Of a DNA stretch of 36,506 nucleotides, positions 7,478 through 35,736 are shown one piece after another. Position numbers and translations under genes: made by a program. Position 1 is the first letter of the stretch. Each line of letters opens with the position of its first letter. Source of the stretch: Propionibacteriales bacterium (GTDB taxonomy: Bacteria > Actinomycetota > Actinomycetes > Propionibacteriales > Nocardioidaceae); NCBI GenBank assembly GCA_009377795.1, contig WHTJ01000045.1, positions 1 through 36,506 of the forward strand, given 5' to 3'. Below the pieces are notes generated by a model. The model saw only the letters and a program-made list of their open reading frames with translations. It was not told the origin of the DNA and searched no databases.

Positions 7478-7488
7478 CTGGTGAGACG

Positions 7489-7523: not shown

Positions 7524-7743
7524 CCTGCCCGTGGTCGGGCCAGGTGTTCGACGAGCACTGCCGCAGCCCACGAGCGCTACCGCCAATCCGACCCCGACGG
7601 CTCACCACAGTCCACGCCCGAGCGTGTCCGCTGAACTACCGTCCGTACTCGACACCGCGGCGGAACCGGCGTAGCTTCCCATCTATCAGGGGCCGAATAT
7701 CTCCGCGGGGAGCTCGGGGACCGCGGACGAGGAGGGAAACGGG

Positions 7744-8959: not shown

Positions 8960-9265
8960 TCAAGCCCCTGATCCGGGGCCGACAGCCAGGCCGACGGGAC
9001 GAACGGTGAGCCCGTCGATCAGGTTGGCCTGCGCGTATGGGTCGTCGAGCAGCAGCCTACGCACGGCGTACGTGTCGGCCGCGCGCACGATCAGCACCGC
9101 GGTGTCGACGGGGTCCCTGGTCGCTCCGGCGAGCAGCACGTGCCCTGAGTCGGCGAGTTCGTGCAGCCAGGCAAGGTGCGCCTCGCGGTGCGGCGCACGT
9201 GACCTCTCCATGTCGGGTACGTAGTGGTAGAGGACCAGGAACGTCGAGGACTGCTCATCGGCCAT
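8960..9265 (-). CDS. YCII-like domain protein
   Basis: Small cytoplasmic protein of the YCII/YciI family (about 100 residues, ferredoxin-like fold). The conserved pattern is present: FLVLYHYVPD, then HREAHLAWLHELADSGHVLLAGA, then the DDPYAQANLIDG segment that carries the family Asp. His and Asp of these motifs are the proposed active-site pair, but the reaction is unknown for most members. ATG 9265 (MADEQ) gives the usual length; ATG 9277 is also in frame and neither has a clear Shine-Dalgarno sequence. It is convergent with the carboxypeptidase, with only 10 bases between the stops, and divergent from the molybdenum hydroxylase genes. Confidence 0.8.
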   Translation of the reverse strand: MADEQSSTFLVLYHYVPDMERSRAPHREAHLAWLHELADSGHVLLAGATRDPVDTAVLIVRAADTYAVRRLLLDDPYAQANLIDGLTVRPVGLAVGPGSGA

Positions 9266-9472
9266 GGGAAGGATCATGCCGTACTGCGGCTGCGACTGTC
9301 AGGTGCGGGAGGCGACAGATCCGGACAGGATTTTCGGCCACCGCGCCATCTCCTCGCGGCTCTCGTCCGTATAGCTGTCTGTGCAGGACTGATGACACGG
9401 GGTGCCGTGCCCTGGGCAGACTGCATGAACGGCGTCGGGGGATGTCGGGGTGTGCTCGGAAGGGAGTCGATC

Positions 9473-9994
9473 GTGCCGACACCATTGACCCGGACCCTGG
9501 TGGTCAACGGCGAAGACCGCACCGTGACGGTGGCTGACGACGGCGAGCAGCTGCTGTATGTCCTCAGGAATCAGCTTGACCAACGCGGCCCGAGGTTCGG
9601 CTGCGGCGTGGCGCAGTGCGGAGCTTGCACGGTGCTGGTCGACGGCGAGATCCGGCGCTCGTGCGTGACGCCTTTGCGTACGGTGCCGGAGGGGGCGAGC
9701 GTGGCCACCCTGGACGGGCTGGACGCGAACGGGGCGCATCCGCTGCAACGAGCGTTCATCGAGCAGCAGGCCGCGCAGTGCGCGTTCTGCGTGAACGGCA
9801 TCATCATGGGCGCCGCCGGCTGGCTGGAGCAGCGCAACGAGTCCGGCGAGACCGCGGCGCCGTCGGACGAGGAGATTGCCGCGTTCCTTTCCGGTGAAGT
9901 CGGGGAGTCGACCTTCAACTACCTGTGCCGGTGCGGTGCCCACGTGCGGATGATCCGAGCGATCCGCCAAGCTGCAGAGGAGCTGCTGTCATGA
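9473..9994 (+). CDS. (2Fe-2S)-binding small subunit of molybdenum hydroxylase
   Basis: Electron-transfer subunit (173 residues) of a xanthine-oxidase-family enzyme, carrying two 2Fe-2S clusters. The plant-ferredoxin-type cluster ligands are in GCGVAQCGACTVLVDGE plus the following SC (CVTPL). The second, helical cluster is bound by CAFC near residue 103 and the late CRCGAH. GTG 9473 is chosen because AAGGGAG lies seven bases upstream and the N-terminus (LTRTLVVNGEDRTVTV) then begins where the family begins. The stop overlaps the next ATG by four bases, so the two subunits are made in concert. No FAD subunit is encoded, as in isoquinoline 1-oxidoreductase (IorAB)-type enzymes. Confidence 0.92.
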   Translation: MPTPLTRTLVVNGEDRTVTVADDGEQLLYVLRNQLDQRGPRFGCGVAQCGACTVLVDGEIRRSCVTPLRTVPEGASVATLDGLDANGAHPLQRAFIEQQAAQCAFCVNGIIMGAAGWLEQRNESGETAAPSDEEIAAFLSGEVGESTFNYLCRCGAHVRMIRAIRQAAEELLS

Positions 9995-12324
9995 CCACCA
10001 ACGAACTGACCCGGCGCGGATTCCTGACCGGTGTCGGCTCTCTGGCTGTGGCGTTCACCCTCGGCCCCGCCGTGCTGGACCAGCAGGCGGCGCAGGCGGT
10101 CGCGGCCGGGCGGCGACCGGGGGTGCGGATCGACGAGACGCCGGCGGACGACTCCCTGGCGTGGCTCGTCCTGACTCCGGCCGGTGTCACGATCCACAGC
10201 GGGAAGGTCGAGCTGGGCACCGGCGTACAGACGGCCTTGACGCAGATCGTCGTGGAGGAGCTGCACCTGCCCACCGGGCGGGTCGGCTACGTACAGGGCG
10301 ACACGCAGGTGACGCCGGACCAGGGGACCACGGCGGGGAGCAAGACCATCCAGAACGGCGGCCCGGAGCTGCGGCGCGCCGCGGCGACCGCGTTCCAGGC
10401 GCTGCTCGACCTGGCCGCGGAGTGGTTCGGCGTCAGCCGGGACCGGCTCGTGGCCAGCGACGGTGTCATCTCGGTCGCGGGTACCCGGCGTCGCGTCACG
10501 TATGAGCAGCTGCTGGCGAACGCCGACCTCGTCCTGGTGGCCGACCGGGACGCGCCGCTGGCCTCACCGGACGACTACCGGATCGTCGGCCAGTCGGAAC
10601 CGCGGGTCGAGCTTCCGGACAAGGTGACTGCCCGCTTCCGGTACGTCCACGACGTCCGGGTGCCCGGCATGCTGCACGGTCGGGTGATCCGTCCGGCGGG
10701 ACGCAACGCCCGCTTCCAGGCGATCGACCCGGGCTCGCTGGACCGGGCGCGCGCCATCCCCGGGTTCGTCACCGTCGTGCAGCGGGACAACTTCGTCGGC
10801 GTCGTGGCGGATACCGAGTGGGCGGCGATCCAGGCGGCGAACCCGTCCACCGGTATCGAGGTGACCTGGGAGGACGGGCAGCCGCTGGTTGCGCAGGAGT
10901 CGCTGCCCGAGGCGCTGCGTGACCCGGCCAACCACTACCGGACGGTGGAGGTAGTCGGGGTCGGTGACGTCGACGAGGCCTTGCCGGCGGCGTCGATCCA
11001 GGTGGAGGCGAGCTACTTCACGCCGTTCCAGATGCACGCGGCGATGGGGCCGTCGTGCGCGGTCGCCGACGTCCGCAGCCAGCCGGACCGGGAGACGGGC
11101 GTCCGGGCCACGGTGTGGTCCAGCACGCAGAACGTCTACAACCTGCGCGACTCCGTGGCCAGCCTGCTCGGCCTGCCGTCCGGGTCGGTGCGCGTCATCT
11201 ACGAGGAGGGGGCCGGGTGCTATGGCCACAACGGCGCCGATGACGTCGCCGGCGACGCCGCGCTGCTGTCCGAGGCGGCCGGCAGGCCGGTTCGGGTGCA
11301 GTGGTCACGCCAGGACGAGCACGGCTGGGAGCCGCTCGGCCCGGCCATGGCCCACGACCTGCGCGGTGGTGTCACCAACGGTGAGGTCGTGGCCTGGGAA
11401 CACATCACGTCCACGCCCACCCACGTCAGCCGGCCCAACGCCAACCCCGGAACGCTGATCGCCGGGGCGCTGACCGGGACACTGCCGTCACCGCTGCCGA
11501 ACTCATCCGGCAACACCGGCACCCGCAACGGCCCGGTCAACTACACCTTCCCCAACCGACGGGTCATCGGGAAGCTCGTCCGCAGCTTCGAGACAACCGG
11601 CGAGACCTCGGGTACGCCAGCGGCGCCGTTGCGCTACCGGTTCATGCGGTCGACGGCGCTGCGGTCGCTCGGCGGGTTCTCCAACTCGTTCGCCAACGAG
11701 TCCTTCCTCGACGAGCTCGCCGCGGCCAGCGGAGCCGACCCGCTGGAACTGCGCCTCCGCTCGCTCGACGATCCCCGCGCGATCGCCGTCGTGGAGGCGC
11801 TCTCCGAAGTCTGGGCGGCCCGGCCGTCGGGTGGCGATGGCGCCGGCGCCGGGATCGCCTTCCAGCGCTACGAGGCCGAGTTCGCCTATGTCGCCGCGTA
11901 CGCCGAGGTGACCGTCGATGCCGACAGCGGCGCGATCCGCGTACCGCGCGTCGTTGTCGCCCATGACTGCGGGCTGATCATCAACCCGGACGGGCTGCGC
12001 AACCAGATCGAAGGCAACGTGATCCAGGGCATCGGCCGGACGCTGAAGGAGGAGGTCCATTTCGACGCGCGCGGTGTCACCAGCGTGGTGTGGGAGCAGA
12101 ACCAGTTCAACCCCACGCCGCAGTACCCGGTCCTGCGGTTCAGCGAGGTGCCGGACATCGAGATCACCCTCATCGACCGTCCCCACGAGCCAGCCTGGGG
12201 CTCCGGCGAACCCGCAATCGGCTGCGTCCCCGGCGCGATCGGCAACGCCGTCTTCGCCGCCACCGGTGTACGCATCCGCACCCTGCCGATGACCCCAGCC
12301 CGTGTCCTGGACGCCTTGGCCTAG
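9991..12324 (+). CDS. Molybdopterin-dependent oxidoreductase large subunit (IorB-like, Tat-exported)
   Basis: Large catalytic subunit (777 residues) that hydroxylates an aldehyde or N-heterocycle using molybdenum cytosine dinucleotide cofactor. A twin-arginine signal (TRRGFLTGVGSLAVAF) suggests export of the folded heterodimer. Conserved elements include GKVELGTGVQTALTQIVVEEL, the TTAGSKTIQNGG segment, MRSTALRSLGGFSN, and WGSGEPAIGCVPGAIGNAV, where Glu740 is the expected catalytic base next to molybdenum. Domain order and the lack of a FAD subunit match IorB-like enzymes, which usually pass electrons to membrane cytochromes. ATG 9991 overlaps the stop of the small subunit (ATGA). The substrate cannot be told from sequence. 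No cofactor-insertion chaperone (XdhC type) is next to it. Confidence 0.92.
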   Translation: MTTNELTRRGFLTGVGSLAVAFTLGPAVLDQQAAQAVAAGRRPGVRIDETPADDSLAWLVLTPAGVTIHSGKVELGTGVQTALTQIVVEELHLPTGRVGYVQGDTQVTPDQGTTAGSKTIQNGGPELRRAAATAFQALLDLAAEWFGVSRDRLVASDGVISVAGTRRRVTYEQLLANADLVLVADRDAPLASPDDYRIVGQSEPRVELPDKVTARFRYVHDVRVPGMLHGRVIRPAGRNARFQAIDPGSLDRARAIPGFVTVVQRDNFVGVVADTEWAAIQAANPSTGIEVTWEDGQPLVAQESLPEALRDPANHYRTVEVVGVGDVDEALPAASIQVEASYFTPFQMHAAMGPSCAVADVRSQPDRETGVRATVWSSTQNVYNLRDSVASLLGLPSGSVRVIYEEGAGCYGHNGADDVAGDAALLSEAAGRPVRVQWSRQDEHGWEPLGPAMAHDLRGGVTNGEVVAWEHITSTPTHVSRPNANPGTLIAGALTGTLPSPLPNSSGNTGTRNGPVNYTFPNRRVIGKLVRSFETTGETSGTPAAPLRYRFMRSTALRSLGGFSNSFANESFLDELAAASGADPLELRLRSLDDPRAIAVVEALSEVWAARPSGGDGAGAGIAFQRYEAEFAYVAAYAEVTVDADSGAIRVPRVVVAHDCGLIINPDGLRNQIEGNVIQGIGRTLKEEVHFDARGVTSVVWEQNQFNPTPQYPVLRFSEVPDIEITLIDRPHEPAWGSGEPAIGCVPGAIGNAVFAATGVRIRTLPMTPARVLDALA

Positions 12325-15014: not shown

Positions 15015-16301
15015 CTAGGCCGCACAGCAGGACAGCATTGACACGTCGCGCGTGAAGGCTTGCGCGGCTAGCCGGAGCCCTTCGGACATGGTCAGGTACG
15101 GCGCCCAGGTGGCGGCCATCTGCTGGGTCGTCATGCCGGACTGGATGGCGTAGGTCCCGGCGAGAATCGCATCCTGGGCGCCGTCGCCGATCATGTGGAT
15201 GCCGCGGATCCGACCGGTGCGGCGCTCTGCGACGATCTTGACCACGCCGCGCGGGTCGCGGTTCACGATCGCGCGGGGCACGTGCTCCAGCGGCAACACT
15301 CGGCACTCGCAACGCAGGCCGGTCTCGACCGCCTCGGCGTCGGTGAGTCCGACCGAGGCGATCGCCGGTGACGTAAACGTCACCCGCGGCAGATGCTCGT
15401 ACTCCACTGCGCGTTCCGCCCGATCGAACGCGTTCTCCACGATCATCGCCCCGTGCGCGGCCGCGACGTACACGAGCTGCGGGTGCCCGGTGACGTCACC
15501 GGCGGCCCAGACTCGTGGGTTGGTGCTCCGCAAGTGGTCGTCGACCACGACCTGGCCACGGTCACCGACCTTGACCCCCACCGTGTCGAACGCAAGGCCC
15601 GCGGTCGCGGGGCGGCGTCCGGTGGCGACCAGCAGCTGGTCCGTACCCAGCACGACGTCCTCCCCGTCGGCCTCGACCGCGACGGAGTACGCCGGGCCGT
15701 TCCGTGCAATGTGCTTGACGGTTGCCGCGGTTACGACGCTGATGCCCTCGTCGGCGAACACACGCTCGATGGTCTGCGAGATCTCGGGTTCCTCGTACGG
15801 CGCCAGCCGATCGAGAACCTCGACCACCGTCACATCGACGCCGAGGCGTGCGAACAGCTGCGCAAGCTCCAGCCCGACGGCGTTGCCACCGACCACGAGC
15901 ATCGACGTCGGCAACTCCTCGAGCTCCTCGCCGGCGAACCGGGCGGACCGGTGAACGATCCTCCAGCCGTACTCGGCGGCCAGGTCGACGTACTTCTCCG
16001 CCCGCAGCATGTCGACCAGCTCGCGCTTCGCCCCGACCAGCGTCGGCAGATCGGCCGGTCGGGCCGATGTCCGGATGCCCGCGAATCTGTCGTCCAGCGC
16101 CATGTGCCGAGCCTCGGCAGCGGCGAGGAGCGCCTTACTCGGAACGCAACCGACGTTGACGCAGGTGCCGCCCACCGTGCCCTGTTCGATCATCACGACC
16201 GAGAGGTCGCGGCGGCGGGCGGCGATGGCGGCAGCGAAGGCGGCCCCGCCCGAGCCGACGATCGCCAGGTCGTACGTCTCGCCTCTTTCAGCGTGATTCA
16301 T
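15015..16301 (-). CDS. merA: Mercuric reductase with an apparent internal deletion
   Basis: Flavoprotein disulfide reductase that reduces Hg(II) to Hg(0) with NADPH. It has the FAD fingerprint GSGGAAFAAAIAARRRDLSVVMIE, the redox disulfide GGTCVNVGCVPSK (Cys47, Cys52), the NADPH domain VVGGNAVGLELAQLFARLGVDVTVVE, the GDV motif (WAAGDVTGHPQLVYVAA) and the C-terminal vicinal Cys425-Cys426 that marks MerA. There is no N-terminal NmerA domain. RIVHRSARFAGEELEELPTSMLVVGG runs straight from the end of the first FAD lobe into the ELPxSMLVVGG segment. The usual stretch of about 45 residues in between, with the ATGxxPxxPPIPG motif, is absent, which explains 428 rather than about 470 residues. The frame is open, but FAD binding may be damaged. 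It is transcribed from a MerR-type promoter that overlaps the end of merR. Confidence 0.9.
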   Translation of the reverse strand: MNHAERGETYDLAIVGSGGAAFAAAIAARRRDLSVVMIEQGTVGGTCVNVGCVPSKALLAAAEARHMALDDRFAGIRTSARPADLPTLVGAKRELVDMLRAEKYVDLAAEYGWRIVHRSARFAGEELEELPTSMLVVGGNAVGLELAQLFARLGVDVTVVEVLDRLAPYEEPEISQTIERVFADEGISVVTAATVKHIARNGPAYSVAVEADGEDVVLGTDQLLVATGRRPATAGLAFDTVGVKVGDRGQVVVDDHLRSTNPRVWAAGDVTGHPQLVYVAAAHGAMIVENAFDRAERAVEYEHLPRVTFTSPAIASVGLTDAEAVETGLRCECRVLPLEHVPRAIVNRDPRGVVKIVAERRTGRIRGIHMIGDGAQDAILAGTYAIQSGMTTQQMAATWAPYLTMSEGLRLAAQAFTRDVSMLSCCAA

Positions 16302-16339: not shown

Positions 16340-16743
16340 GTCGCGGCGCCCGACGTGAGACGGATGGTCTGCAGCAACGGACAATCCCGGTCGCTCCGCG
16401 GTAGTGCGCAGGTGCCGACCAGCTGCTGAAGCGCCCCTCGCATCTCCTGAAGGTCGGCGATCTTGGCTTCGAGATCGGCGAGCCGCTCCTCGGCAACTAC
16501 CCGTGCTGCATCGCAGTTGTCCGGGCCGCCGTCGGCCAGGTGAAGCAGATCCCCCACCTCGGTCAGGGTGAATCCCAGCTGTTGGGCTCGCTTGACGAAC
16601 CGCACCACGTCCACGGCGTCGACCGGGTACGCCCGATATCCCGACGAGGAGCGCGGCGGCCGTTCGAGCAGGCCCCGGCGTTCGTAGTACCGCAGGGTCT
16701 GGGGGTTCACGCCCGCCTGCATCGCCACCTCACTCGTCCGCAT
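16336..16743 (-). CDS. merR: Mercury-responsive MerR regulator
   Basis: MerR-family activator/repressor of 135 residues. The N-terminal winged helix is MRTSEVAMQAGVNPQTLRYYERRGLLERPPRSSSGYRAY, with the invariant LRYYERRGLL. A dimerising coiled coil follows at about residues 78-108. The three Hg(II) ligands of Tn501-type MerR are present with exact spacing: Cys77, Cys112 and Cys121 (35 and 9 residues apart, the last two in TCALPRSDRDCPLL). This supports a true mercury sensor rather than another MerR subtype. It should bind the several operator copies in this island, including its own. It lies upstream of merA in the same direction with a 34-base gap. Confidence 0.95.
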   Translation of the reverse strand: MRTSEVAMQAGVNPQTLRYYERRGLLERPPRSSSGYRAYPVDAVDVVRFVKRAQQLGFTLTEVGDLLHLADGGPDNCDAARVVAEERLADLEAKIADLQEMRGALQQLVGTCALPRSDRDCPLLQTIRLTSGAAT

Positions 16744-16749
16744 GCCTCC

Positions 16750-16780
16750 AGTGTCAACCCTGTACCAAGCTACAGAGCAA
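16750..16780 (-). promoter_or_regulatory. MerR-type operator/promoter of merR
   Basis: The minus strand has TTGCTC (16780-16775), a 19-base spacer with the dyad CTGTAGCTTGGTACAG, and GACACT (16755-16750). GGAGGC and the merR ATG follow directly, the same module as at merA. The -35 is weaker than in the other copies (TTGCTC against TTGACC), consistent with low autoregulated expression. Confidence 0.68.
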
Positions 16781-16786
16781 GCGCCC

Positions 16787-16817
16787 TTGACCCTGCACCT
16801 AGTACAGGGGCGACCAT
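16787..16817 (+). promoter_or_regulatory. MerR-type operator/promoter facing the CC membrane protein
   Basis: The plus strand has TTGACC (16787-16792), a 19-base spacer and GACCAT (16812-16817). The spacer region carries the nearly perfect dyad CCCTGCACCTAGTACAGGG. It lies back to back with the merR promoter, so one intergenic region fires both ways. No ATG follows directly; the next supported start is GTG 16882. Confidence 0.68.
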
Positions 16818-16881
16818 CGACAACATCGACGAGGCCCCACCCGCCCCGTCCCGAGGTCTGAGGTCACGAAGGAAGCAGCCC

Positions 16882-17226
16882 GTGGCGCCGAGCGAACGCG
16901 ACGACGGCAGCAGGGGCGGTGGGCTACGCGCGGGTGCCCTGTTCATCCTGCCGGTGCTCTGTTGCGCGCTTCCCCTCCTGATCGCCGCCGGTGCCTTCGG
17001 AGTGGCCGCCGGCTGGCTGCTGGGCAACCTCTGGATGATCGGCGCAGCGGTGCTGCTTGTCGTCGGCGTACTGCTGTGGCGTGGGCGGCGCCGGCCGGCG
17101 ACCAAGCCCCCGCGCATGCCCGGGAGCAACGGCCGATACGGCTCGTCCCGGCTTGACCCTGGACCCGGGTACAGGGCCGACGATGGAGGACAACAATCGT
17201 CATCACGGTGCGGAGGTGCGACATGA
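16882..17226 (+). CDS. Small CC-motif membrane protein, possible mercury transporter (MerT/MerC-like)
   Basis: A 114-residue protein with two membrane helices: GALFILPVLCCALPLLIAAGAFGVAAGWLLG and NLWMIGAAVLLVVGVLLW. The vicinal cysteine pair inside the first helix, next to prolines, is the hallmark of inner-membrane Hg(II) uptake proteins such as MerT and MerC. Together with its mer operator this suggests mercuric ion import, but the overall match is weak and no named family is certain. GTG 16882 follows AAGGAAG at a good distance. The polar tail after WRGRRR (about 50 residues) is low in complexity and overlaps the next mer operator, so the original stop may have been lost. The stop overlaps the following ATG (ATGA). 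Confidence 0.62.
   Translation: MAPSERDDGSRGGGLRAGALFILPVLCCALPLLIAAGAFGVAAGWLLGNLWMIGAAVLLVVGVLLWRGRRRPATKPPRMPGSNGRYGSSRLDPGPGYRADDGGQQSSSRCGGAT
17153..17184 (+). promoter_or_regulatory. MerR-type operator/promoter inside the 3' end of the CC membrane protein gene
   Basis: TTGACC (17153-17158), a 20-base spacer with a CCTGGACCCGGGTACAGG dyad, and GACGAT (17179-17184) followed by GGAGGA repeat the mer module on the plus strand. The ATG expected six bases after GACGAT is missing; the next start is ATG 17223. The site lies within coding sequence for the tail of the upstream protein. Confidence 0.62.
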
Positions 17227-17429: not shown

Positions 17430-18929
17430 CTAGCGGGTTAGGTGCGCGTCGAGCTTGCCCGACAGTTCAGTGGCGTGAGCGATGATGGGGCGGCCCCAGC
17501 CAACGAGGCCCTGCGGTACGTCGTTGTTGCTCCACACAGAGTTCGAACCGTAGAGAAACAGGGCGTCCCACTGCACGGGCAGCTTGCCGTACCCGTGCTC
17601 GGCGAACCACCGGCCGGTCACCCGGTCTTCGTCCCACATGTGGACGACGCGTGTGTCGTTGAGGATGCGGCCGTCCCACTCCGTGCGCTCGTCGCTGGGC
17701 AGCACGGGCAACCAGACCGCATACACCTGGACGTCGGCGTCTGGATGTCTCGCCAACTCGTCCTGCAGCCAATCGGCCCCTCGCAGGCAGGTCACGCAGG
17801 TGGGTGACAGCAGAGCGATGACGCGCGGCGTACCGGCCTTCTCGTCGAACAGCCGCTGCAGTTGTCCCAGGCCGGAGAGGTAGGACAGGGTGGCGGCGGG
17901 ACCGGCATTGCGCAACAGCTTCCGCTCCTCGGCCGTCGCCGGCCGAGCCGACAGGTCGTCGCCGGGCAGGCCAGACTTGGCCGTGCCGTCAGACGACGCA
18001 CTGGTGGGGCCGGATCCGGCCCCACCGACGCCGTACCCGATCAACCCAGCCATACCCGCGATCGCAAGGGCACCGGCGGCCAGCCTCAGTGTCCGGGCCC
18101 GGTGCCGCAGGCTGACGGTCACCGCGATCGCCAGAATCGCTGCAAGGGTGAGGAAAAGCGGCACGCCGCCGCCGCTTCGTGCGCTTAGCTCGATCCATGC
18201 GGCGAAGTCGGTGACAACTCCCACCAGCGGGTCGGACGCCGCCGCGGCGGGCGAGGCGAGTTCGGCGCGCAACGAGTAGTACGCGAGGTAGCCGCCCGCG
18301 ATGACGAGGAGTGCGCCGGTGATCCGGCCGACATACGGCAGCGCCCGCGCGGCCCATCGCCGGATGCCCTCGCTGGCGATGGCAGCGCAGACGGCCAGCA
18401 CCATCAGCACCGTGGCCAGGCCGGCGCCATAGGCGGTGAACACGACCAGGGTCGTGGCGAAGTCGCGACTTGCCGCCACGCCTACGAGGGCCAGAAACAC
18501 CGGAAGAGTGCAAGCCATGGGGGCGACCCCGTAGCCAACCCCGAACAGGACGTGGGTTAGCGCACGTCCCCGCACGTGAAAGGGGGCGATCGCGGCTCTC
18601 GGGAGCGAGATACGCCGGCCGGCCAAAGTGGCGAGCCCGACGACGAACAGAATTGCCCCGAACGCCAGGCCAACCCACGGGATCGCGTCGGAGATCACGG
18701 AAGCGCCGTAGCTCAGTGGAAGACCCACCATCGTGAAAACGCCGACAAACCCGAGGGCTACCAGCAACCCCGTAGCGAGCCCCCGCGTGACTCGACTCGG
18801 CACACCCGTCGGTGCCGCCGCATCACCAAGGTTGTACGCCAAGAACGCCGACAGCACCGCGAAGCCGCACGGGTTGAACGCGGCCAGTGTGCCGGCAACG
18901 AGCGCGACCGAGATCGGGACGGCATTCAT
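17430..18929 (-). CDS. CcdA/DsbD-type membrane protein fused to a thioredoxin-like domain
   Basis: A 499-residue fusion. The N-terminal part (about 1-220) is a CcdA/DsbD transmembrane electron conduit: it has FNPCGFAVLSAFLAYNL and GYGVAPMACTLPVFLALVG, each with one of the paired membrane cysteines, and six hydrophobic segments. Two more helices follow (about 255-315). The C-terminal part (about 330-499) has LLSPTCVTCLRGADWLQDELA with a CxxC pair (Cys378, Cys381) typical of thioredoxin-fold redoxins. The protein could pass electrons from cytoplasmic thiols to an outward-facing redoxin. Related genes sit in some actinobacterial mer clusters, where a role in mercury or thiol handling is suspected. 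ATG 18929 has no good Shine-Dalgarno sequence. It is downstream of the hydrolase fragment. Confidence 0.85.
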   Translation of the reverse strand: MNAVPISVALVAGTLAAFNPCGFAVLSAFLAYNLGDAAAPTGVPSRVTRGLATGLLVALGFVGVFTMVGLPLSYGASVISDAIPWVGLAFGAILFVVGLATLAGRRISLPRAAIAPFHVRGRALTHVLFGVGYGVAPMACTLPVFLALVGVAASRDFATTLVVFTAYGAGLATVLMVLAVCAAIASEGIRRWAARALPYVGRITGALLVIAGGYLAYYSLRAELASPAAAASDPLVGVVTDFAAWIELSARSGGGVPLFLTLAAILAIAVTVSLRHRARTLRLAAGALAIAGMAGLIGYGVGGAGSGPTSASSDGTAKSGLPGDDLSARPATAEERKLLRNAGPAATLSYLSGLGQLQRLFDEKAGTPRVIALLSPTCVTCLRGADWLQDELARHPDADVQVYAVWLPVLPSDERTEWDGRILNDTRVVHMWDEDRVTGRWFAEHGYGKLPVQWDALFLYGSNSVWSNNDVPQGLVGWGRPIIAHATELSGKLDAHLTR

Positions 18930-19206
18930 GACAGCGGAAGGCGCACTGTTGGGTTGCCTCCTTGGGGCCTGTCCATCCGGTTGAACGAACCAAGCCGCGA
19001 GTACGTTTCACCTCGGCAGATGCGGCGACTGGGATCCGGTGGTTGGCCCAAGCGGACATGGTGAACCCCTCAGGGGGTGCCGGCATGCCGTGGGCTGGTG
19101 CCGTCAGGGCGTGCGTGTCCGCGATGCCGTCGAGCGCGGCCCTCTGGGTGTCCCACAGGTCCGGACCCATCAACCAGCCGTGCAGGAAGACCACGTCCAC
19201 GGTCAC
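18823..19206 (-). pseudogene. Alpha/beta hydrolase N-terminal fragment in mer island
   Basis: From GTG 19206 (preceded by GAGGAG) the minus strand encodes VDVVFLHGWLMGPDLWDTQRAALDGIADTHALTAPAHGMPAPPEGFTMSAWA, the first strands and oxyanion motif (LHGW) of an alpha/beta hydrolase. After about 19050 the similarity stops. The open frame continues without recognisable content (RIPVAASAEVKRTRGLV and beyond) and runs into the antisense-free start of the CcdA-type gene, which is in another frame. The nucleophile elbow, Asp and His are all missing. The useful part is therefore about 19050-19206, a remnant. It lies downstream of a symmetrical mer operator. Confidence 0.6.
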
Positions 19207-19256
19207 GTCTCCTCGGTCCTCGTCCTATTGGCGTCGACCTGGCAGTGCCATCCCTC

Positions 19257-19290
19257 ATGGTTGACCCGGTAGCGAGGTACAAGGTCAACC
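19257..19290 (-). promoter_or_regulatory. Symmetrical MerR-type operator between hydrolase fragment and merB remnant
   Basis: GGTTGACC (19259-19266) and GGTCAACC (19283-19290) are perfect inverted repeats around a 16-base core with GGTAGCGAGGTAC. Read on the minus strand, TTGACC and AACCAT are 20 bases apart, which fits a promoter for the hydrolase remnant. On the plus strand no good -10 follows. CCCCC, seven T and GGGGG come directly after it (19289-19305). Confidence 0.6.
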
Positions 19291-19335
19291 CCCTTTTTTT
19301 GGGGGAGAGGCACTCGTCGAACGACCTGAAGGCCC

Positions 19336-19367
19336 TTGACCTTGTACCTCACTACGCGGCCGACGAT
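19336..19367 (+). promoter_or_regulatory. MerR-type operator/promoter of merB remnant
   Basis: TTGACC (19336-19341), a 20-base spacer with TTGTACCTCACTACGCGG, and GACGAT (19362-19367) are followed by GGAGGC and ATG 19374. This is the same promoter-to-start module as at merA and merR. GGAGG is only one base from the ATG, too close to act as a normal ribosome-binding site, so translation is probably leaderless. Confidence 0.7.
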
Positions 19368-19373
19368 GGAGGC

Positions 19374-19712
19374 ATGACCAGGCCGAGTATCAGCGACCTC
19401 AAGACCACGTGGAGTCAGCGCGACGACTCCACCAACAGCGTCAGCCGGGCCGGCATCGACCTGCTCGCGGACGGCAGGCCGGTCCCGGCGGTACGACTGG
19501 CTGAGGCCATCGGCGTGAGCCTCGATCAGGCAGCGAACTACATCGAGCGGGCGTACCGGGCTGGCGCCGAAGTCGAAGATGGTGCTGTCGTCGGGGCGGC
19601 TCTGACGCTACGCCCGACCGTGCACCGGTTCCTGGTCGACCATCCAGATGTCGCCATCGTCGACCTCGACGACGCGCGCGAGGTCGCTCGCGCCTACGTG
19701 CAGGAGGCTTGA
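19374..19712 (+). CDS. merB: Organomercurial lyase remnant with catalytic core missing
   Basis: A 112-residue open frame that looks like MerB with its middle removed. Residues 25-85 (GIDLLADGRPVPAVRLAEAIGVSLDQAANYIERAYRAGAEVEDGAVVGAALTLRPTVHRF) match the N-terminal winged-helix domain of alkylmercury lyase. LVDHPDVAIVDLDDAREVARAYVQEA then resembles the C-terminal end of actinobacterial MerB. The catalytic core of roughly 100 residues between them, with the Cys96/Asp99/Cys159 triad (E. coli numbering), is absent, so it cannot cleave C-Hg bonds. ATG 19374 is fixed by the promoter module. The assignment of the C-terminal piece rests on pattern memory and is less sure than that of the N-terminal piece. 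A small regulator derived from the winged helix is an alternative. Confidence 0.62.
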   Translation: MTRPSISDLKTTWSQRDDSTNSVSRAGIDLLADGRPVPAVRLAEAIGVSLDQAANYIERAYRAGAEVEDGAVVGAALTLRPTVHRFLVDHPDVAIVDLDDAREVARAYVQEA

Positions 19713-26505: not shown

Positions 26506-26539
26506 CCGGTTGACCACGACAAGGTAGGTCGAGGTGAGG

Positions 26540-28705
26540 ATGTTCGGAATCGCGACGCGTGGGGTTGATGCCTTCCCTCTCACCGGGAGAGGATGGCGCG
26601 ACCGACTCACTCCACTTCAGGGTATTTCGGACGTGATCGGCAAGCGGTGGATGGAGGGCGCCGTCCCTCTCGTACTGGCCGCCGTGCTCACGACCGGGGT
26701 CGTGTTCATGACTCCGGTCGGTGCTACCGATGCCCCGCTGATCATGGATGAGGTCGCGGAGAAGAGCCTCCTCGCCATCGGCCTGACCTTGGTCATGGTC
26801 GCCGGCGGCATCGACCTGTCAATCGGGTCGATCGTCGGCTGCTCCTCACTGGCGGCCCTGACAGCCTTCCGCGTGTGGGGCTGGCCCATGGAGGTCGTCA
26901 TCCCGGCCGCAGTCATTCTTGGCGCGATGTTGGGCGCGATCAATGGCGTCCTCATCGCCAAGATGAAGATGCGGCCCTTCATCACGACGCTGGTCACCCT
27001 CGTCGCGTTCGGGGGTGCCGCGGAAGCCTTGCAGTCGAGGTACACCAACCAGCTCGCATTCCCTAAGTCCGACATCCTCTGGGATTTCTTAGGGGAGGGC
27101 GCCATCGCAGGCATTCCCACGGCCTGGGCGATCTTCGGGATCGTCCTGGTCGTAGCCCACATCGGCCTCACCCGGTCGCGCTGGGGCTGGTGGGTCACGG
27201 CCGTGGGCTCGGACCGCCGTTCTGCGCGGCGAAACGGCATCCCCGTGGACCGGGTGGTCTTCCTCACCTATGTGCTGTCAGGTGCACTGGCCGGCCTGGC
27301 CGGACTGCTTACCGCAGCCCGCCTGGGCCGCACCGACCCGGCTGTGGGCGAAGGGTGGGAGCTCATTGCGCTCACCGCGGTGGTGATTGGTGGTGTCAGT
27401 CTCAAGGGCGGACGCGGGTCTGTCGTCCGTGCGGTCGCCGGGATGGTCGTCGTCGCCGTTATCCTTCAGGCGAGCATCGCCTTCACCCTCGAGGCTGGGG
27501 GCTACACGGCCATCCTCGCACTCGTGTTGTTCTCGTTCGCGATTCTGGACCTGAAGTGGGGCAAGTACCGACTGCGGATCGCGGAGAAGCTCACCATCGA
27601 TCCTGGCAGGATCTCGGTCGGTCCACTCGTCGACGTCACCGAGCCCGGCACTGTCTGGAGCATCAACAGCAAGCTCACTGATGCGCCTCCGATCGGGCTC
27701 GGGACGATCGAGGGCGCGGAGGACTGCGCGCTGGACGACGAGGGCAACCTGTTCTGCGGCGATCGCCGTGGGTGGATCTGGCGCTTCTCCGGGCCAGACC
27801 ACACCAACGGTGAGGTATTCGCCAGAACCGGCGGCATGCCCCTGGGGCACGCCTGGGACCGTGACGGTGTCCTCATGGTGGCCGTCGGAGGCATGGGGGT
27901 CTACCGCGTCTTTCCGGACGGGGAGACCAAACTCGTCGCCAACCAAGTGCGGCGCAGCTTGACGTCCCTGCACGATGACTCGGCGCTCCGCTTCGCCGAT
28001 GACCTCGACACCGCGCCCGACGGCTCGATCTACGTGTCGGATTTTTCGACCCGTACCAACGCCGCCGAGTACATGGTCGAGTTGGTGGAGTACCGGCCCA
28101 ACGGACGCATCGTCCGTATCGACCCCGACGGCAGCACGGACGTCGTGGTGTCCAACTACGTCTTCCCCAACGGCATCTGCACGTCTCACGACGGCCAGTC
28201 GATCCTCATCGCGAGCACGGGTCTGTTTCGTGTCGACAGGCTGTGGATCTCCGGGTCTAAACAGGGACAGTTCGAGCCGGTCATGGAGAACCTGCCCGGA
28301 TATTGTGACAACATCAACCGGGCGTCGGACGGCAACTATTGGATGTCATTCATCGCGATGCGGACGCCGATGTCGGACCTGCTGATGAAGTACCCGGCGG
28401 TGCGGAGGCGGATGACCCGGGAAGTGCCGCAGGACAACTGGCTGGTTCCGCAGCTGAACGTCTCGTGTGTGCTCAAGTTCGACGACCAAGGGAACGTGCT
28501 CAAGGTGTTCTGGGACAAGAGCCTGGAGAACTATCCCATGGTGACGTCCATCAACGAGCACGCCGGACATCTATACCTGTGCGGGCTCTTGAACAACCGG
28601 GTTGGTCGGCTCCAGCTTGATCCCGAGGACGTGGGAGACATCGACCCCCGTCTCGTGCCCGGCACCACCGGACGGTCCCTCCCATTCTCGGAGGTGGCAC
28701 GTTGA
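26540..28705 (+). CDS. RbsC-type ABC permease fused to an SMP-30/strictosidine-synthase-like beta-propeller
   Basis: A 721-residue fusion. Residues about 35-345 are a ribose-type permease (LMVAGGIDLSIGSIVGCSSLAAL, INGVLIAKMKMRPFITTLVTLVAFGGAAEAL, AVGSDRRSARRNGIPVDRVVFLTYVLSGALAGLAGLL, VIGGVSLKGGRGSVVRAVAG). Residues about 370-710 are a six-bladed propeller of the SMP-30/gluconolactonase/strictosidine-synthase group. The usual metal and catalytic residues are in place: Glu394 (EGAEDCAL), Asn544 (FPNGICTS) and Asp590 (GYCDNINRASDG). In RbsC-type permeases the C-terminus is cytoplasmic, so the enzyme domain would sit at the channel exit. ATG 26540 has GAGG upstream; GTG 26534 is an alternative. 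The stop overlaps the next start (TTGA). No frameshift or stop separates the two halves, so the fusion is real in this sequence. Confidence 0.9.
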   Translation: MFGIATRGVDAFPLTGRGWRDRLTPLQGISDVIGKRWMEGAVPLVLAAVLTTGVVFMTPVGATDAPLIMDEVAEKSLLAIGLTLVMVAGGIDLSIGSIVGCSSLAALTAFRVWGWPMEVVIPAAVILGAMLGAINGVLIAKMKMRPFITTLVTLVAFGGAAEALQSRYTNQLAFPKSDILWDFLGEGAIAGIPTAWAIFGIVLVVAHIGLTRSRWGWWVTAVGSDRRSARRNGIPVDRVVFLTYVLSGALAGLAGLLTAARLGRTDPAVGEGWELIALTAVVIGGVSLKGGRGSVVRAVAGMVVVAVILQASIAFTLEAGGYTAILALVLFSFAILDLKWGKYRLRIAEKLTIDPGRISVGPLVDVTEPGTVWSINSKLTDAPPIGLGTIEGAEDCALDDEGNLFCGDRRGWIWRFSGPDHTNGEVFARTGGMPLGHAWDRDGVLMVAVGGMGVYRVFPDGETKLVANQVRRSLTSLHDDSALRFADDLDTAPDGSIYVSDFSTRTNAAEYMVELVEYRPNGRIVRIDPDGSTDVVVSNYVFPNGICTSHDGQSILIASTGLFRVDRLWISGSKQGQFEPVMENLPGYCDNINRASDGNYWMSFIAMRTPMSDLLMKYPAVRRRMTREVPQDNWLVPQLNVSCVLKFDDQGNVLKVFWDKSLENYPMVTSINEHAGHLYLCGLLNNRVGRLQLDPEDVGDIDPRLVPGTTGRSLPFSEVAR

Positions 28706-31342: not shown

Positions 31343-32068
31343 ATGGCAAGCTCGCCTCGCAAGGTCGAGATCATGACCGCCGCGCGGAATTTGCTGGCCG
31401 TGCATGGCTTCGCGGGCACGACGATGGCGGCCATCGCGGCCGAGGTCAGCGTCGTGGAAAGCGCCCTATACCGGCACTTCACCTCCAAAAACCATCTGTT
31501 TCGCGAGACGGTGAGCCATTTCTACGAGCCGGTCCTGAAGGACATCGAGAACGCCGCCGAAAACATCGGCGACCCGGTGGCGATCGTGCGCTACGTGATT
31601 CGGCGTCACGTCCGTTCTTACATCGAGATTCCGGAGCTGAACCGGCTGGTCGTCGTACAGGCACGGCAGTCCTCGGCCGAGGAGGAGATGGGTGTCGCCG
31701 ACCTGAACCGGCGCTACACGTCTGTGCTGACCAGAACCGTCGCCGCCGGCGTGGCCGACGGGTCGCTGCGCAGCGACCTTGACCCTCGCCTCGTCCGGGA
31801 CATGATCTTCGGCGCCATCGAGCATGTCTGGCTCCGGCACGAGGCTCACGGCGAACAGATGGACGTGGAAGCCGTATCCGACGACATCTACGCGTTGCTG
31901 GAGCCGGCGCTGCTTCCGCCGTCCGACCTCGTCGAGGAGCTGCGCGTCGAGGTGGACCGCCTAGGCCGTCTGCTGGAGGCGCTGGAGCGGAGGGGCCGCT
32001 CGGCGTCGAAGGCCAAGAAGGCGGCACACCCGAGCCGCGGTGCGCAAGCGGATGGAAGGAGACAGTAG
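31343..32068 (+). CDS. TetR-family transcriptional regulator
   Basis: A 241-residue repressor. The N-terminal helix-turn-helix is clear (PRKVEIMTAARNLLAVHGFAGTTMAAIAAEVSVVESALYRHFTSKNHLFRETVSHF). The remaining helices form a ligand-binding and dimerisation domain without a specific signature. The Lys/Ser/Arg-rich tail (about 215-241) is unusual in composition. ATG 31343 follows CTGGAG. It is encoded in the middle of the transporter/CoA-pathway cluster, two bases ahead of the ligase gene, so it probably regulates this operon in response to the imported compound or its CoA thioester. The TGACTCAC repeats upstream of the first gene are candidate targets. Confidence 0.9.
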   Translation: MASSPRKVEIMTAARNLLAVHGFAGTTMAAIAAEVSVVESALYRHFTSKNHLFRETVSHFYEPVLKDIENAAENIGDPVAIVRYVIRRHVRSYIEIPELNRLVVVQARQSSAEEEMGVADLNRRYTSVLTRTVAAGVADGSLRSDLDPRLVRDMIFGAIEHVWLRHEAHGEQMDVEAVSDDIYALLEPALLPPSDLVEELRVEVDRLGRLLEALERRGRSASKAKKAAHPSRGAQADGRRQ

Positions 32069-32070: not shown

Positions 32071-33675
32071 ATGAAGGACCTTGCCGCTAACGCTGCCGGG
32101 TCCACGCCCGCCGTGGATGTGTCGCAGCCCCGCTGGTCTTCCCTGAATCTTGCCTACCTTGCGGATCGTTCCGGCCTGGACCCGGACAAGACGGCGATCG
32201 TCCACGAAGGGCGGGCCCGAACCTACCGAGAGCTCAGGCAACGGCATCGCCGGATAGCCAACGGCCTGGTCGAACTGGGGGTCGAGCGGTTTGACCGGGT
32301 CGGCATCACCACCCGGAACCGCATGGAGTACTTCGAGACCGAGCTCGGTATCGCCGCCGCAGGCGGCATCATGGTTTCCCTCAGCTGGCGGCTGAGCGGC
32401 CCGGAGCGCGTGAACCTGCTCCGCCGGGCCCAGGTTCGCGTGGTTTTCACCGAGGAGCCTTACGTGCCGCAGATCCTCGAGGCACAGTCCGCGGGCGACC
32501 TTCCCGATCTGCAGGTCATCGTCTCGTTCGATCAGGCTCACGACGGCGTACGCAACTACGACGAGTTCTGCTCCTCGTCGAGCGAGGCCGACCCAGCCAT
32601 CGGGGCGCGGCTGGAGGACCCACACGAGATCATCTACACGTCCGGTACCACAGGACTCCCCAAAGGTGTGGTGTGGACGCACGGAACGGTGATGTGGAAC
32701 GCCATCGAGCAGGTCATGGACTATGCCTTGGGCTCGAATGACTCGACCTACGTCGCGCTTGACCTCAACTACATCGGCGGCCGCCACGACTTCACCTGGC
32801 CGATGCTCTATCAAGGAGCGACCGTCCACCTGCGGCGGTCGGGCGGGTTCGATGCGCGGGAGGCCGTCGAGTACGTCGCCGAAAACCGCATCACCCACGT
32901 GCTGTGGATGCCCACCATGATCTACGACATCCTCCGGGTTCCGGATGTGACCGAGTACGACACGAGCTCGCTGAAGATGATCATGTCCGGCGGAGCGCCG
33001 TTGTCCCAGGAGATCATCGCTCGGGCACAAAAGACGTTCCCAGGAACCGATTTCGTTCAGGTGTACGGGCTCACCGAAGGCGGGGGCACCGTCACATTCC
33101 TGCCACCGACGCATGCCGTGTCCAAGATCGGCTCGGCCGGCAAGGCCTCGATGCATAACGACATCCGGGTGGTCGACAGCAACGGGGTGACGTGCGCCCC
33201 GAACGACGCGGGGGAGATCATCATCAAGGGCCCTACCGTGACCCCCGGCTACTGGGACAACCCGGAGGCGACCGCGGAGTCCATCCGCGACGGTTGGCTG
33301 CACACCGGTGATCTGGGCTATATGGACGAAGAGGGGTTCCTGTATGTTTCCGGCCGCAAGAAGGACATGATCATCAGCGGCGGCATGAACATCTACCCGA
33401 GCGAGGTCGAGCACGTCCTGCGTGAGCACGAAGCCGTCCACGACGTGGCCGTGATCGGCGTCCCGGACGATAAGTGGGGGGAGAACGTCTGTGCCGTGAT
33501 CCAGCCCGCTCCCGGGGCGACTGTCGACCACGACGAGATCCTGGCCCTCTGCCGTGAGCGGCTGGCTGGCTTCAAGAAGCCCACCAGGATCGAGTTCGTC
33601 GATGAGCTTCCCAGGACGGTCTCGGGAAAGGTCCAGAAGTACGTCCTGAGGGAACGGATGACCGGCCGTAGCTGA
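32071..33675 (+). CDS. AMP-dependent acyl-CoA ligase/synthetase
   Basis: Adenylate-forming ligase (534 residues) that activates a carboxylic acid to its CoA thioester with ATP. Motifs in order: the P-loop YTSGTTGLPKGVVWTHG (about 189-206), VYGLTEGGGTV, GWLHTGDLGYMDEEGFLYVSGRKKDMIISGGMNIYPSEVE (hinge and A8 region) and the catalytic Lys in PRTVSGKVQKY. All are intact. Similarity is to fatty-acid/aryl-CoA ligases in general; the acid cannot be named. AAGGAGACAG gives a good ribosome-binding site for ATG 32071. It follows the TetR gene by two bases and precedes the SDR by 11. Confidence 0.93.
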   Translation: MKDLAANAAGSTPAVDVSQPRWSSLNLAYLADRSGLDPDKTAIVHEGRARTYRELRQRHRRIANGLVELGVERFDRVGITTRNRMEYFETELGIAAAGGIMVSLSWRLSGPERVNLLRRAQVRVVFTEEPYVPQILEAQSAGDLPDLQVIVSFDQAHDGVRNYDEFCSSSSEADPAIGARLEDPHEIIYTSGTTGLPKGVVWTHGTVMWNAIEQVMDYALGSNDSTYVALDLNYIGGRHDFTWPMLYQGATVHLRRSGGFDAREAVEYVAENRITHVLWMPTMIYDILRVPDVTEYDTSSLKMIMSGGAPLSQEIIARAQKTFPGTDFVQVYGLTEGGGTVTFLPPTHAVSKIGSAGKASMHNDIRVVDSNGVTCAPNDAGEIIIKGPTVTPGYWDNPEATAESIRDGWLHTGDLGYMDEEGFLYVSGRKKDMIISGGMNIYPSEVEHVLREHEAVHDVAVIGVPDDKWGENVCAVIQPAPGATVDHDEILALCRERLAGFKKPTRIEFVDELPRTVSGKVQKYVLRERMTGRS

Positions 33676-33686: not shown

Positions 33687-34448
33687 ATGTCGGGTTTGAC
33701 TGAGGGAAAGATCGGGGTGGTCACCGGCGCTGCGTCCGGCATCGGCCGAGCGGTAGCTCTCGCGTTCGCCCGCGAGGGTGGATCCCTGGTGATAGCGGAC
33801 CTGAACGAGCAGGGCTGCCGGACGACGGCGCAGACGATCGCGGACATGAGCGGCGAGGTGCACCCGGCGGTGTGCGACGTCACCGAGGCGAAGGACGTCC
33901 ATGCACTCGTGGCACAGGTCGTGGGTCTGTTCGGCGCTCTCGACTGTGCGTTCAACTGCGCGGGGGTCGAGGGGCCATTCGGCAAGACGGGTGTCTATGA
34001 GGAGGCGGCGTGGCGACACGTCATCGACGTCAACCTCACTGGTACGTGGCTCGCAATGCGTGCCGAGCTTGGCCAGATGGTCCAGCAGGAACGAGGCGCA
34101 ATAGTCAACATCGCCTCCGTTGCCGGGCTCAGGGCGTCCCACGGCATGCCGGCCTACACGGCGTCCAAGCACGGCGTCGTGGGCCTCACCAAGACAGCCG
34201 CGCTGGAGTACGCCAATACCGAGATCCGCGTCAACGCCGTATGCCCCGGAATCGTCGATACGCCGATGCTGGAACGAATAACCGAGGATCGCTCCCGCCT
34301 TTGGGACCGACTCATCGCGCGGACACCGTATGGCCGGCCAGCCCGGGCGGAGGAGATCGCCGAGGCGGCCGTGTGGCTCGGGTCAGACCGGTCGTCCTAC
34401 ATGACCGGCCACGCGATGCCGGTCGACGGGGGCTACGTGGCCATGTGA
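33687..34448 (+). CDS. SDR-family NAD(P)-dependent oxidoreductase
   Basis: Classical short-chain dehydrogenase (253 residues), probably oxidising a hydroxyl of the CoA-bound or free substrate. It has VTGAASGIGRA, an Asp after beta-2 (IADLNE) that favours NAD, NCAGVEG in place of NNAG, the active Ser in NIASVAG, YTASK and the end VDGGYVAM. This is the length and end point typical of the family. Its start ATG 33687 has GAGAGGACGG upstream. It sits between the acyl-CoA ligase and the CoA transferase, consistent with a hydroxyacyl or alcohol oxidation step. Confidence 0.92.
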   Translation: MSGLTEGKIGVVTGAASGIGRAVALAFAREGGSLVIADLNEQGCRTTAQTIADMSGEVHPAVCDVTEAKDVHALVAQVVGLFGALDCAFNCAGVEGPFGKTGVYEEAAWRHVIDVNLTGTWLAMRAELGQMVQQERGAIVNIASVAGLRASHGMPAYTASKHGVVGLTKTAALEYANTEIRVNAVCPGIVDTPMLERITEDRSRLWDRLIARTPYGRPARAEEIAEAAVWLGSDRSSYMTGHAMPVDGGYVAM

Positions 34449-34485
34449 GTGACCGTTGGCAGTGGATCGACGGAGAAGAGGAGCT

Positions 34486-35736
34486 ATGTCCCCCGACGGT
34501 TTGAAGCACATCTACGACGGCATCCGCGTGCTCGACTTCACCCAGGTACTGGCCGGGCCGACCGTGACCCGGCTGCTGGCCGAGATGGGCGCGGACGTCA
34601 TCAAGGTCGAGCTGCCCCCTGGCGGAGACCGGTCGCGAGCTCTCCCCTACCTACGGGACGGCCGGAGTGGCTACCACATCCAGCAGAACCGCGGGAAGCG
34701 GAGCCTTTGTGTCGACCTGCACTCGGCGAGAGGGATAGAGATCGTCTTCGACCTGCTACGGCATGTCGACATCGTCGTGGACAGCTTCAGCCCGGGAACC
34801 CTGGGCGCCCTCGGCCTGACATACGACGCCATGAAGGCGGTACGTCCTGGGCTTATCATGTGCTCCGTGTCCGCGTTCGGCCAGGACGGCGAACTCGCCG
34901 GGAAGCCGGGGTACGACCACATCGCGCAGGCGTACTCCGGCATCACGTCCATGATCGGTACGCCGGAGGCTGCGCCCAGCCTGACCAGCTTCGGGGTCGG
35001 CGACGTCACGACCGGGGTCTACGGGATGGCGGCCGTCGCATCGGCGTTGTTCCATCGCGAGCGGACCGGCGAGGGCCAGTGGGTCGAGGTATCCCTGCTC
35101 GACACATATTTCAACTCTCACGAGATCAACGTGCAGGCGTATAGCGGAAGCCGCGGCGACATCAAGCCCAGCCGTTCGGGATCGCACCACTACGCGATCT
35201 GTCCTTTCGGCGTCTACCGGACCAGCGACGGGTTCGTCTTCATCGCGGTTCCCTCCGAACACCAGTGGTCGTACCTGTGCCGGGCGATCGGCCGGGAGGA
35301 GCTGATCGAGGATCCCCGCTATAGCACGAACCGCGCACGGTCGGAGCGGGCGACGGAGGTCGTCGAGATCGTCGAGGGATGGCTGGCGACCCTGTCCGGG
35401 ACCGAGGAGGCGGTACGTGTGCTCGAGGCCGAGCGGGTTCCGGTCGCGCCAGTCCTGTCCGTGGAGCAGGCCATCCACCACCCGCATCTGCGGCAGCGGC
35501 GCACTGTCCGGTCAGTACGGGACCGGGTCTGGGGCACGATCGAGATCCCCGGCGTCCCTATGCGCTTCTCCGCCTGGCCCGACGAGCTTCCGCTCGAGGC
35601 TCCGTTCCTCGGTGAGCACAACGAGGAGATTCTGAGTGAGTACCTCGGCTACGATGCGCAGACCTGCGAGAGCCTGGCTAAGGGCGGCGTTCTGGCATCC
35701 GAGTCCCACAAGGGAAAAACGGGCAGCTCCGCGTAG
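34486..35736 (+). CDS. CaiB/BaiF-type (class III) CoA transferase
   Basis: Family III CoA transferase or acyl-CoA racemase, 416 residues. The N-terminus has the CoA-binding signature GIRVLDFTQVLAGPTVTRLLAEMGADVIKVELPPGGD. It continues with NRGKRSLCVDLHSARG, DSFSPGTLGALGL and KPGYDHIAQAYSGITSMIG, where the Asp is the likely acyl-anhydride-forming residue. The late part has AERVPVAPVLSVEQAIHHPHLRQR. ATG 34486 is chosen for the GAAGAGGAG just ahead. Members move CoA between carboxylic acids or epimerise alpha-methyl acyl-CoA. As the last gene of the cluster it would recycle CoA or prepare the acyl chain for beta-oxidation. Confidence 0.93.
   Translation: MSPDGLKHIYDGIRVLDFTQVLAGPTVTRLLAEMGADVIKVELPPGGDRSRALPYLRDGRSGYHIQQNRGKRSLCVDLHSARGIEIVFDLLRHVDIVVDSFSPGTLGALGLTYDAMKAVRPGLIMCSVSAFGQDGELAGKPGYDHIAQAYSGITSMIGTPEAAPSLTSFGVGDVTTGVYGMAAVASALFHRERTGEGQWVEVSLLDTYFNSHEINVQAYSGSRGDIKPSRSGSHHYAICPFGVYRTSDGFVFIAVPSEHQWSYLCRAIGREELIEDPRYSTNRARSERATEVVEIVEGWLATLSGTEEAVRVLEAERVPVAPVLSVEQAIHHPHLRQRRTVRSVRDRVWGTIEIPGVPMRFSAWPDELPLEAPFLGEHNEEILSEYLGYDAQTCESLAKGGVLASESHKGKTGSSA

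Follow-up and report, generated by a model that had tools for sequence, protein, structure and literature searches.

RbsABC-type importers (CUT2) combine BPD_transp_2 permeases with a Peripla_BP_4 binding protein and a double-domain ATPase of the RbsA/XylG type, and ABC importers are, to our knowledge, generally regarded as moving their cargo unaltered. The N6P superfamily of β-propellers contains SMP-30/gluconolactonase, DFPase, Drp35, PON1 and the RPA3624 lactonase, which have in common the fold and metal ligands of the E/N/N/D type. For the strictosidine-synthase-like (SSL) proteins, one study gives a metal-ligand criterion for a true strictosidine synthase and holds those that keep four ligands likelier to be hydrolases (PMC4215206). 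Rice TGW6 (PDB 8kg3) hydrolyzes IAA-glucose; its site has one acidic residue, and no Ca2+ was reported in the crystal (PMC10958001). From Deinococcus, another report describes a Cu/Zn-SOD fused to an SGL-type calcium-binding β-propeller lactonase (PMC12362111).

The window, i.e. the entire stretch of 36,506 nucleotides that was analyzed, harbors at 24308–31312 genes which, judged from their predicted products (binding protein, permeases and double ATPase in one operon), are those of a CUT2/RbsABC importer (Table 1). In contrast to RbsABC-type systems, two different permeases are present, one of which bears a C-terminal propeller, and a stand-alone second propeller is added. With the N6P enzymes named above the fused propeller shares fold and ligand type, but it is attached to a transporter, has a degenerate partner and falls by Pfam into the SSL subgroup. 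TGW6 is its best solved relative in sequence and fold; unlike TGW6, which has no permease fusion, it is acidic at E396, at D592 and mostly at D489. The Deinococcus protein is likewise a natural lactonase fusion, with a superoxide dismutase and not a transporter as partner. Permease and propeller are known components, and the novelty lies in their conserved union with a degenerate partner, which was found described nowhere in the literature searched; a published description of the permease-propeller fusion itself was not found in this search either, most subscription journals being outside its scope.

Table 1. Features of the window. Residues are numbered from the GTG start at 26534; Glu394, Asn544 and Asp590 of the ATG count correspond to E396, N546 and D592.
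Feature	Positions	Strand	Remarks
Partner RbsC-type permease, unfused, 338 aa	24308–25324	+	PF02653, 99.1 bits
Periplasmic-type substrate-binding protein, 354 aa	25441–26505	+	PF13407 Peripla_BP_4, 105.8 bits; lipoprotein-like N-terminus by eye
Permease-propeller fusion	26534–28705	+	GTG start, 723 aa; ATG at 26540, 721 aa; stop at 28705
Halves of the fusion			Permease ~residues 40–340, SSL/SMP-30-type propeller ~372–700; based on Pfam
Codon of E396, first metal ligand (predicted)	27719–27721	+	E in 44/44 fused rows and 22/22 stand-alone relatives
Codons of D489-D490, second ligand position (predicted) and adjacent Asp	27998–28003	+	489: D 32, N 12 of 44; 490: D in 44/44
Codon of N546, metal ligand (predicted)	28169–28171	+	N in 43/44
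Codons of D592-N593, metal ligand pair (predicted)	28307–28312	+	Each 44/44
Second, stand-alone SSL-type propeller without metal site, 359 aa	28702–29781	+	Start overlaps fusion stop by 4 nt
RbsA/XylG-type double ATP-binding protein, 508 aa	29786–31312	+	ABC_tran, two stretches, 172.9 bits
TetR-family regulator, possible module regulator	31343–32068	+	PF00440, PF08359; FadR model 72.8 bits, below cut-off of 200
Acyl-CoA ligase (AMP-binding), candidate downstream enzyme	32071–33675	+	PF00501, 275.7 bits
Short-chain dehydrogenase, candidate downstream enzyme	33687–34448	+	PF13561, 222.5 bits
Class III CoA-transferase, candidate downstream enzyme	34456–35736	+	PF02515, 392.3 bits

The original prediction had joined an RbsC-type permease and a propeller in a single open frame, which was confirmed by Pfam and by fused homologues elsewhere; the second propeller gene and the conserved five-gene module were absent from it. 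In the permease half, BPD_transp_2 (PF02653) matched residues 79–335 with 129.1 bits at a curated cut-off of 26.8. SSL_N (33.3 bits, residues 375–418), SGL (39.4 bits, 422–605) and Str_synth (54.3 bits, 489–574) exceeded their curated cut-offs in the propeller half, and all four profiles were matched in 34/34 aligned fusion members (E≤0.001). By its Str_synth and SSL_N profiles the fused propeller is assigned to the SSL subgroup of the N6P propellers. For the ATPase, the xylG, araG and rbsA models all remained below their cut-offs and the NCBIfam models of sugar systems that were listed lay far below theirs.

The architecture of permease and SGL/Str_synth domains in one chain, which the original prediction proposed to search for as a check, recurs in plasmid as well as genome loci. 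The fusion matched 15 plasmid records with at least 80% query coverage and about 36–44% identity, nine of these rows being joined from two pieces, and in all eight records read with annotation it is one annotated gene. Including the window, these eight plasmids and 35 genome loci, at least 44 fused loci were obtained from Proteobacteria and Actinomycetota. The plasmids, from Celeribacter, Sulfitobacter, Rhizobium, Shinella (two), Paraburkholderia, Pantoea and Salipiger, have the identical gene order; Amycolatopsis, a Mycobacteriaceae assembly, Bradyrhizobium, Mesorhizobium, Variovorax and Yersinia proxima are among the genome-contig sources. This order (permease, binding protein, permease-propeller, second propeller, double ATPase) is constant in 39/39 loci with all genes in view, each beginning with the unfused permease, and the remaining five of the 44 (L050, L052, L058, L061, L065) are truncated at contig ends. 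Of the 43 loci in which the second propeller is visible, 34 show a 4-nt overlap between the end of the fusion and the beginning of this gene, a count affected by our own rule for setting start codons.

Since the genome-contig scan retained the best 80 of at least 577 relatives (35 of these 80 carried both halves in one frame), its loci are selected for similarity to the fusion, and a search seeded with the second propeller was used as a check. Each of the 26 loci fetched in this way (L127–L152) has a fused frame directly upstream, judged from the visible ~1.5 kb with ~110–135 permease residues, and an ATPase downstream; L127–L129 are re-finds by construction, four of the loci lie in the genome of L059 and L074, and one search supplied 4 of 37 places. 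At E≤1e-45 and with a Mesorhizobium genome as centre, the second propeller occurred in 24/151 genomes of that family and in 11/398 of that phylum, the centre genome with its five copies being counted both times. It was found in 4/341 genomes of the window's family, the window's own genome counted, and among 396 genomes of its phylum the own genome alone reached this level. With the second-propeller alignment A4, 16 of these 396 genomes gave matches at E≤1e-10, the own genome at 7.5e-110 and the best of the other 15 at 1.0e-30, a value in the range of the fused propeller itself; these 15 are taken to be stand-alone SSLs. Three genomes of the same family contain the entire module, with 55–68% identity in the fused propeller vs 41–59% in its permease. 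In the Mesorhizobium genome (L059, L074; L130, L144, L149, L152), five second propellers were observed, each adjoining a match to the fused propeller. The five copies suggest several solutes.

The residues Glu394, Asn544 and Asp590, which had been proposed to occupy metal-ligand positions, all fall on ligand columns of the alignment. Judged by alignment, not by coordinates, the fused propeller carries the four-ligand set of the metal-dependent N6P hydrolases, namely E396, D/N489, N546 and D592-N593. A later set of 32 rows, which overlaps the first and counts three places twice, keeps E396, D490, N546, D592 and N593 throughout. Stand-alone bacterial relatives have E396, N489, N546, D592 and N593 in 22/22 cases, whereas position 490 is N in 20 and Q in two of them; this set of 22 resulted from 23 rows regarded earlier as unfused, after removal of L070, a fusion cut by the contig start. 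Because D is invariant at 490 in the 44 fused rows vs N or Q in these relatives, this extra acid beside the second ligand marks the fused group. Apart from D490, the residues R411, R474, D482, R521, N595, R624, W636, N642 and N687 are near-invariant in the fused group and rare or absent in the 23 rows including L070. A true strictosidine synthase, metal-independent and with the ligands lost, was considered and rejected, as the ligands are kept in 44/44 or 43/44 rows. The alignments comprised 34 of the 44 fused rows (A3) and 31 of the 43 second propellers (A4), the plasmid loci as well as some near-duplicates and cut rows having been excluded. In A3 the window's copy deviates near the site motifs with C591 instead of Pro (32/34) and Y667 instead of His (30/34); Phe, Tyr or Leu is found at 667 in stand-alone relatives.

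The structure comparison (VIA) of the fused propeller gave TGW6 with Z 35.4, 2.5 Å and 26% identity over 280 residues, followed by strictosidine synthases (Z 32.6–35.2), DFPase (~31), RPA3624 lactonase (30.4–31.0), Drp35 (~29) and PON1 (~28.5). As the rows within Z 1 of TGW6 are strictosidine synthases, both tie as the nearest solved fold. With the whole fusion as query, VIA and, among the rows shown, Foldseek likewise matched propellers. The site of TGW6, with its single acid and no Ca2+ described in the crystal, means that kinship with this enzyme is no proof of metal-dependent catalysis. From the designation "lactonase-like" in the original prediction the metal ligands were retained and the label was broadened to lactone or ester hydrolase, since the domain is of the SSL type and an ester hydrolase matches it best in structure.

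In the window's second propeller, the six ligand columns read E, T, D, A, G and R. Among 27 aligned second propellers, 396 is D (22), E (4) or N (1), 489 is T and 490 is A in 22/27 each, 546 is mixed (N in four), 592 is G, A or S, and 593 is R in 26 and K in one. With the same picture in 31 rows, the second propeller is, as read from the alignment, one that has lost its metal site and the four-ligand set. It has conserved residues of its own (S324, R325, G328 and H331 in 31/31), and its AF2 model (pLDDT 88.5, pTM 0.87) found strictosidine synthases as top Foldseek matches.

Within the module the degree of conservation is uneven. Mean pairwise identities over 27 loci, thinned from 37 after seven of the 44 had been excluded as cut at one end, were 60.9% for the ATPase, 58.9% for the fused propeller, 47.3% for the unfused and 46.6% for the fused permease, and 39.7% for the binding protein and 37.9% for the second propeller as the two most divergent components. 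The distances of the components correlate across loci (Spearman 0.53–0.90). From these values the chemistry end of the module looks constant and the recognition end variable. A FastTree analysis of 27 fused, 27 second and 22 stand-alone propellers separated three exact groups with local supports of 0.994, 1.0 and 0.986, which fits a single origin of the fusion and a single acquisition of its partner, given a small stand-alone sample.

Taken from the fusion, the five-gene module, the ligand conservation, the ligand loss in the second propeller and the cytoplasmic charge pattern described below, we favor with moderate confidence an importer with a putative metal-dependent lactone/ester hydrolase at its exit and a pseudo-enzyme as partner. 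In this CUT2/RbsABC-like ABC importer, the second permease subunit would bear an SSL/SMP-30/PON-type propeller hydrolase, probably with Ca2+, on its cytoplasmic end. The second propeller, a degenerate copy whose translation usually overlaps that of the fusion, would probably pair with or cap the fused one. A solute containing a lactone or ester would be captured by the binding protein and imported by the ATPase with both permeases. Where it leaves the channel, the fused propeller may open the lactone or ester, so that the product is trapped as free (hydroxy)acid and uptake is drawn forward. Enzymes of adjacent genes (acyl-CoA ligase, CoA-transferase, dehydrogenases) could process the acid further. 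A wider proposal, which we put forward tentatively and with less than even confidence, is a class of ABC importers performing chemistry on their cargo: a covalent lactone/ester hydrolase would open and trap the solute leaving the channel as hydrolytic counterpart of group translocation, with the constant pseudo-enzyme propeller assisting it allosterically or structurally and with many solutes served by change of the binding protein. Against a hydrolase speak C591 and Y667 of the window, which depart from the family near the site motifs, and identical conservation would be expected if the site merely binds a ligand or metal for regulation.

Such a regulatory role, in which the fused propeller, on binding Ca2+ or a product in the cytoplasm, gates the transporter by trans-inhibition while the second propeller relays to the ATPase and the solute undergoes no chemistry, is unlikely in our view, although it deserves consideration. 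Despite the loss of its site, the second propeller persists in all 39 complete loci, so the propellers matter beyond catalysis, and the near-invariant residues specific to the fused group could form an interface. This contrasts with the full ligand set of catalytic type, which is common to stand-alone SSLs, and with the conservation of the fused propeller, nearly that of the ATPase. Further, the trans-inhibited ABC importers known to us use other, smaller domains.

A scaffold, in which the propellers pass the unaltered solute on to further enzymes or do no more than bind it inside and the metal site is a binding site, appears improbable. The lack of ligands in the second propeller and the diversity of the genes around the constant module would agree with it, but it offers no need for metal ligands kept in 44/44 or 43/44 rows. 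As to this diversity, the neighbor clusters of the 44 loci comprise short-chain dehydrogenases (13), AhpD/carboxymuconolactone decarboxylase-like proteins (11), acyl-CoA ligases (9), class III CoA-transferases (8), aldehyde dehydrogenases (7) and TRAP permeases (7). No cluster reaches a third of the loci, the most frequent (14/44) being other ABC ATPases. The clusters were formed by single linkage from mechanically called ORFs of unthinned loci and labeled by plasmid annotation, Pfam or one representative; among 20 flanking ORFs scanned, three had no Pfam match.

For the hydrolase reading preferred above, the neighbors give hints on the substrate. Acyl-CoA ligases adjoin the module in L037, L039, L049 and L050 (by Pfam), L030 (by annotation) and L158, a genome of the window's family whose ligase was recognized by its 54% identity to that of the window. 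In Shinella sp. HZN7 (L036), the module permease begins on the very base with which a degradative HMG-CoA reductase gene ends (10520–11845; TIGR00532, 434 bits, cut-off 260), which makes this locus a candidate operon for uptake of mevalonate or mevalonolactone; mevalonolactone would fit. In L044 an HMGL-like lyase overlaps the ATPase stop, and an enoyl-CoA hydratase is also among the neighbors. Both the reductase of L036 and the lyase of L044 fit free acids or CoA esters. Other loci have a thiolase (L049) or zinc alcohol dehydrogenases (L045, L063) nearby, and sugar-phosphate genes (Pantoea), a histidinol dehydrogenase (L064) and an aminotransferase (L051) do not suggest lactones. Overall, the predicted neighbors support free acids as frequent products rather than any single substrate.

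A gene fusion of another kind was observed directly before the module of L050, where one frame of 768 aa (5485–7791) unites TetR_N, a TetR C-terminal domain and an AMP-binding acyl-CoA ligase. Its counterparts in the window, TetR and ligase, are separate adjacent genes.

The preferred reading places the hydrolase in the cytoplasm, as had the original prediction. The AF2 model of the fusion (pLDDT 84.3, pTM 0.65) shows the last membrane helix continuous from 321 to 354 into the linker; its placing of the propeller relative to the channel is untrustworthy. As neither permease has sequence relatives in the PDB (no hit for either at E≤1), the topology was deduced from the charge pattern and from RbsC, both ends of which are cytoplasmic. 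Loops were cut by us from the AF2 helices and their mean Lys+Arg/Asp+Glu contents taken over 33–34 rows. The loops of inside type gave 5.3/3.1 (N-terminus), 1.9/0 (TM4-5), 5.7/0.2 (TM6-7) and 1.0/0 (TM8-9), in comparison to a mere 0.06–0.33 Lys+Arg in the five loops of the opposite side. The tail after TM10, with 5.4 Lys+Arg and 1.1 Asp+Glu (34 rows), resembles the N-terminus and the TM6-7 loop. By this pattern of Lys/Arg-rich loops and tail, a cytoplasmic position of the fused propeller is supported. The opposite arrangement, an external C-terminus with the propeller as periplasmic or extracellular enzyme or receptor, would be in line with the action outside the cytosol of several relatives from animals and plants (PON, strictosidine synthase) and with the TM2-3 loop (0/1.0), inside in the simple model and the sole misfit to the inside-positive pattern, having no Lys or Arg and one acid; the Lys/Arg-rich tail makes it very improbable.

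In the gene tree Actinomycetota and Proteobacteria are interleaved, L065 grouping with Comamonadaceae and Bradyrhizobium with a support of 100/100, and this mixing suggests horizontal transfer of the module, apparently between phyla. The window's own position is unsure because its end branch is long (2.66 changes per column). This branch and the two odd residues at conserved places are what could be cited for a decaying fusion in this single genome or for a sequencing or assembly chimera, a negligible prospect given intact ligands and fused homologues in plasmids and genomes (at least 44 loci, besides the three same-family genomes), in which the ~35–44% identity of relatives runs through the junction.

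In database annotation both propeller genes carry generic labels that mislead and are corrected here. On the eight plasmids the fusion is named "SMP-30/gluconolactonase/LRE family protein" in seven cases and "ABC transporter permease" in one, and the second propeller "hypothetical protein" in six and "strictosidine synthase" in two. A conserved module with a hydrolase-type domain on the permease and a degenerate partner would directly exemplify a union of transport with catalysis, and with it the question whether uptake is driven by hydrolytic trapping becomes open to experiment.

Elsewhere in the window, two subunits of a xanthine-dehydrogenase-like oxidoreductase are located at 9224–12324: a small one of the 2Fe-2S type, judged by eye, and a large one of the molybdenum type, for which the listed NCBIfam models score far below cut-off. 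Long ORFs with no Pfam match at E≤1e-5 are located at 6035–7474 (+), 16540–17223 (+), 17433–18929 (−) and 19077–19709 (+), two of them close to a MerA-type mercury(II) reductase on the reverse strand (15015–16301; TIGR02053, 498 bits in two stretches, above cut-off). Residues 126–427 of this reductase correspond to model positions 162–464, and about 36 residues of the N-terminal FAD part are apparently absent in frame. At 3796–5694 a large tannase-like protein of unknown function is encoded (DUF6351, 676 bits).
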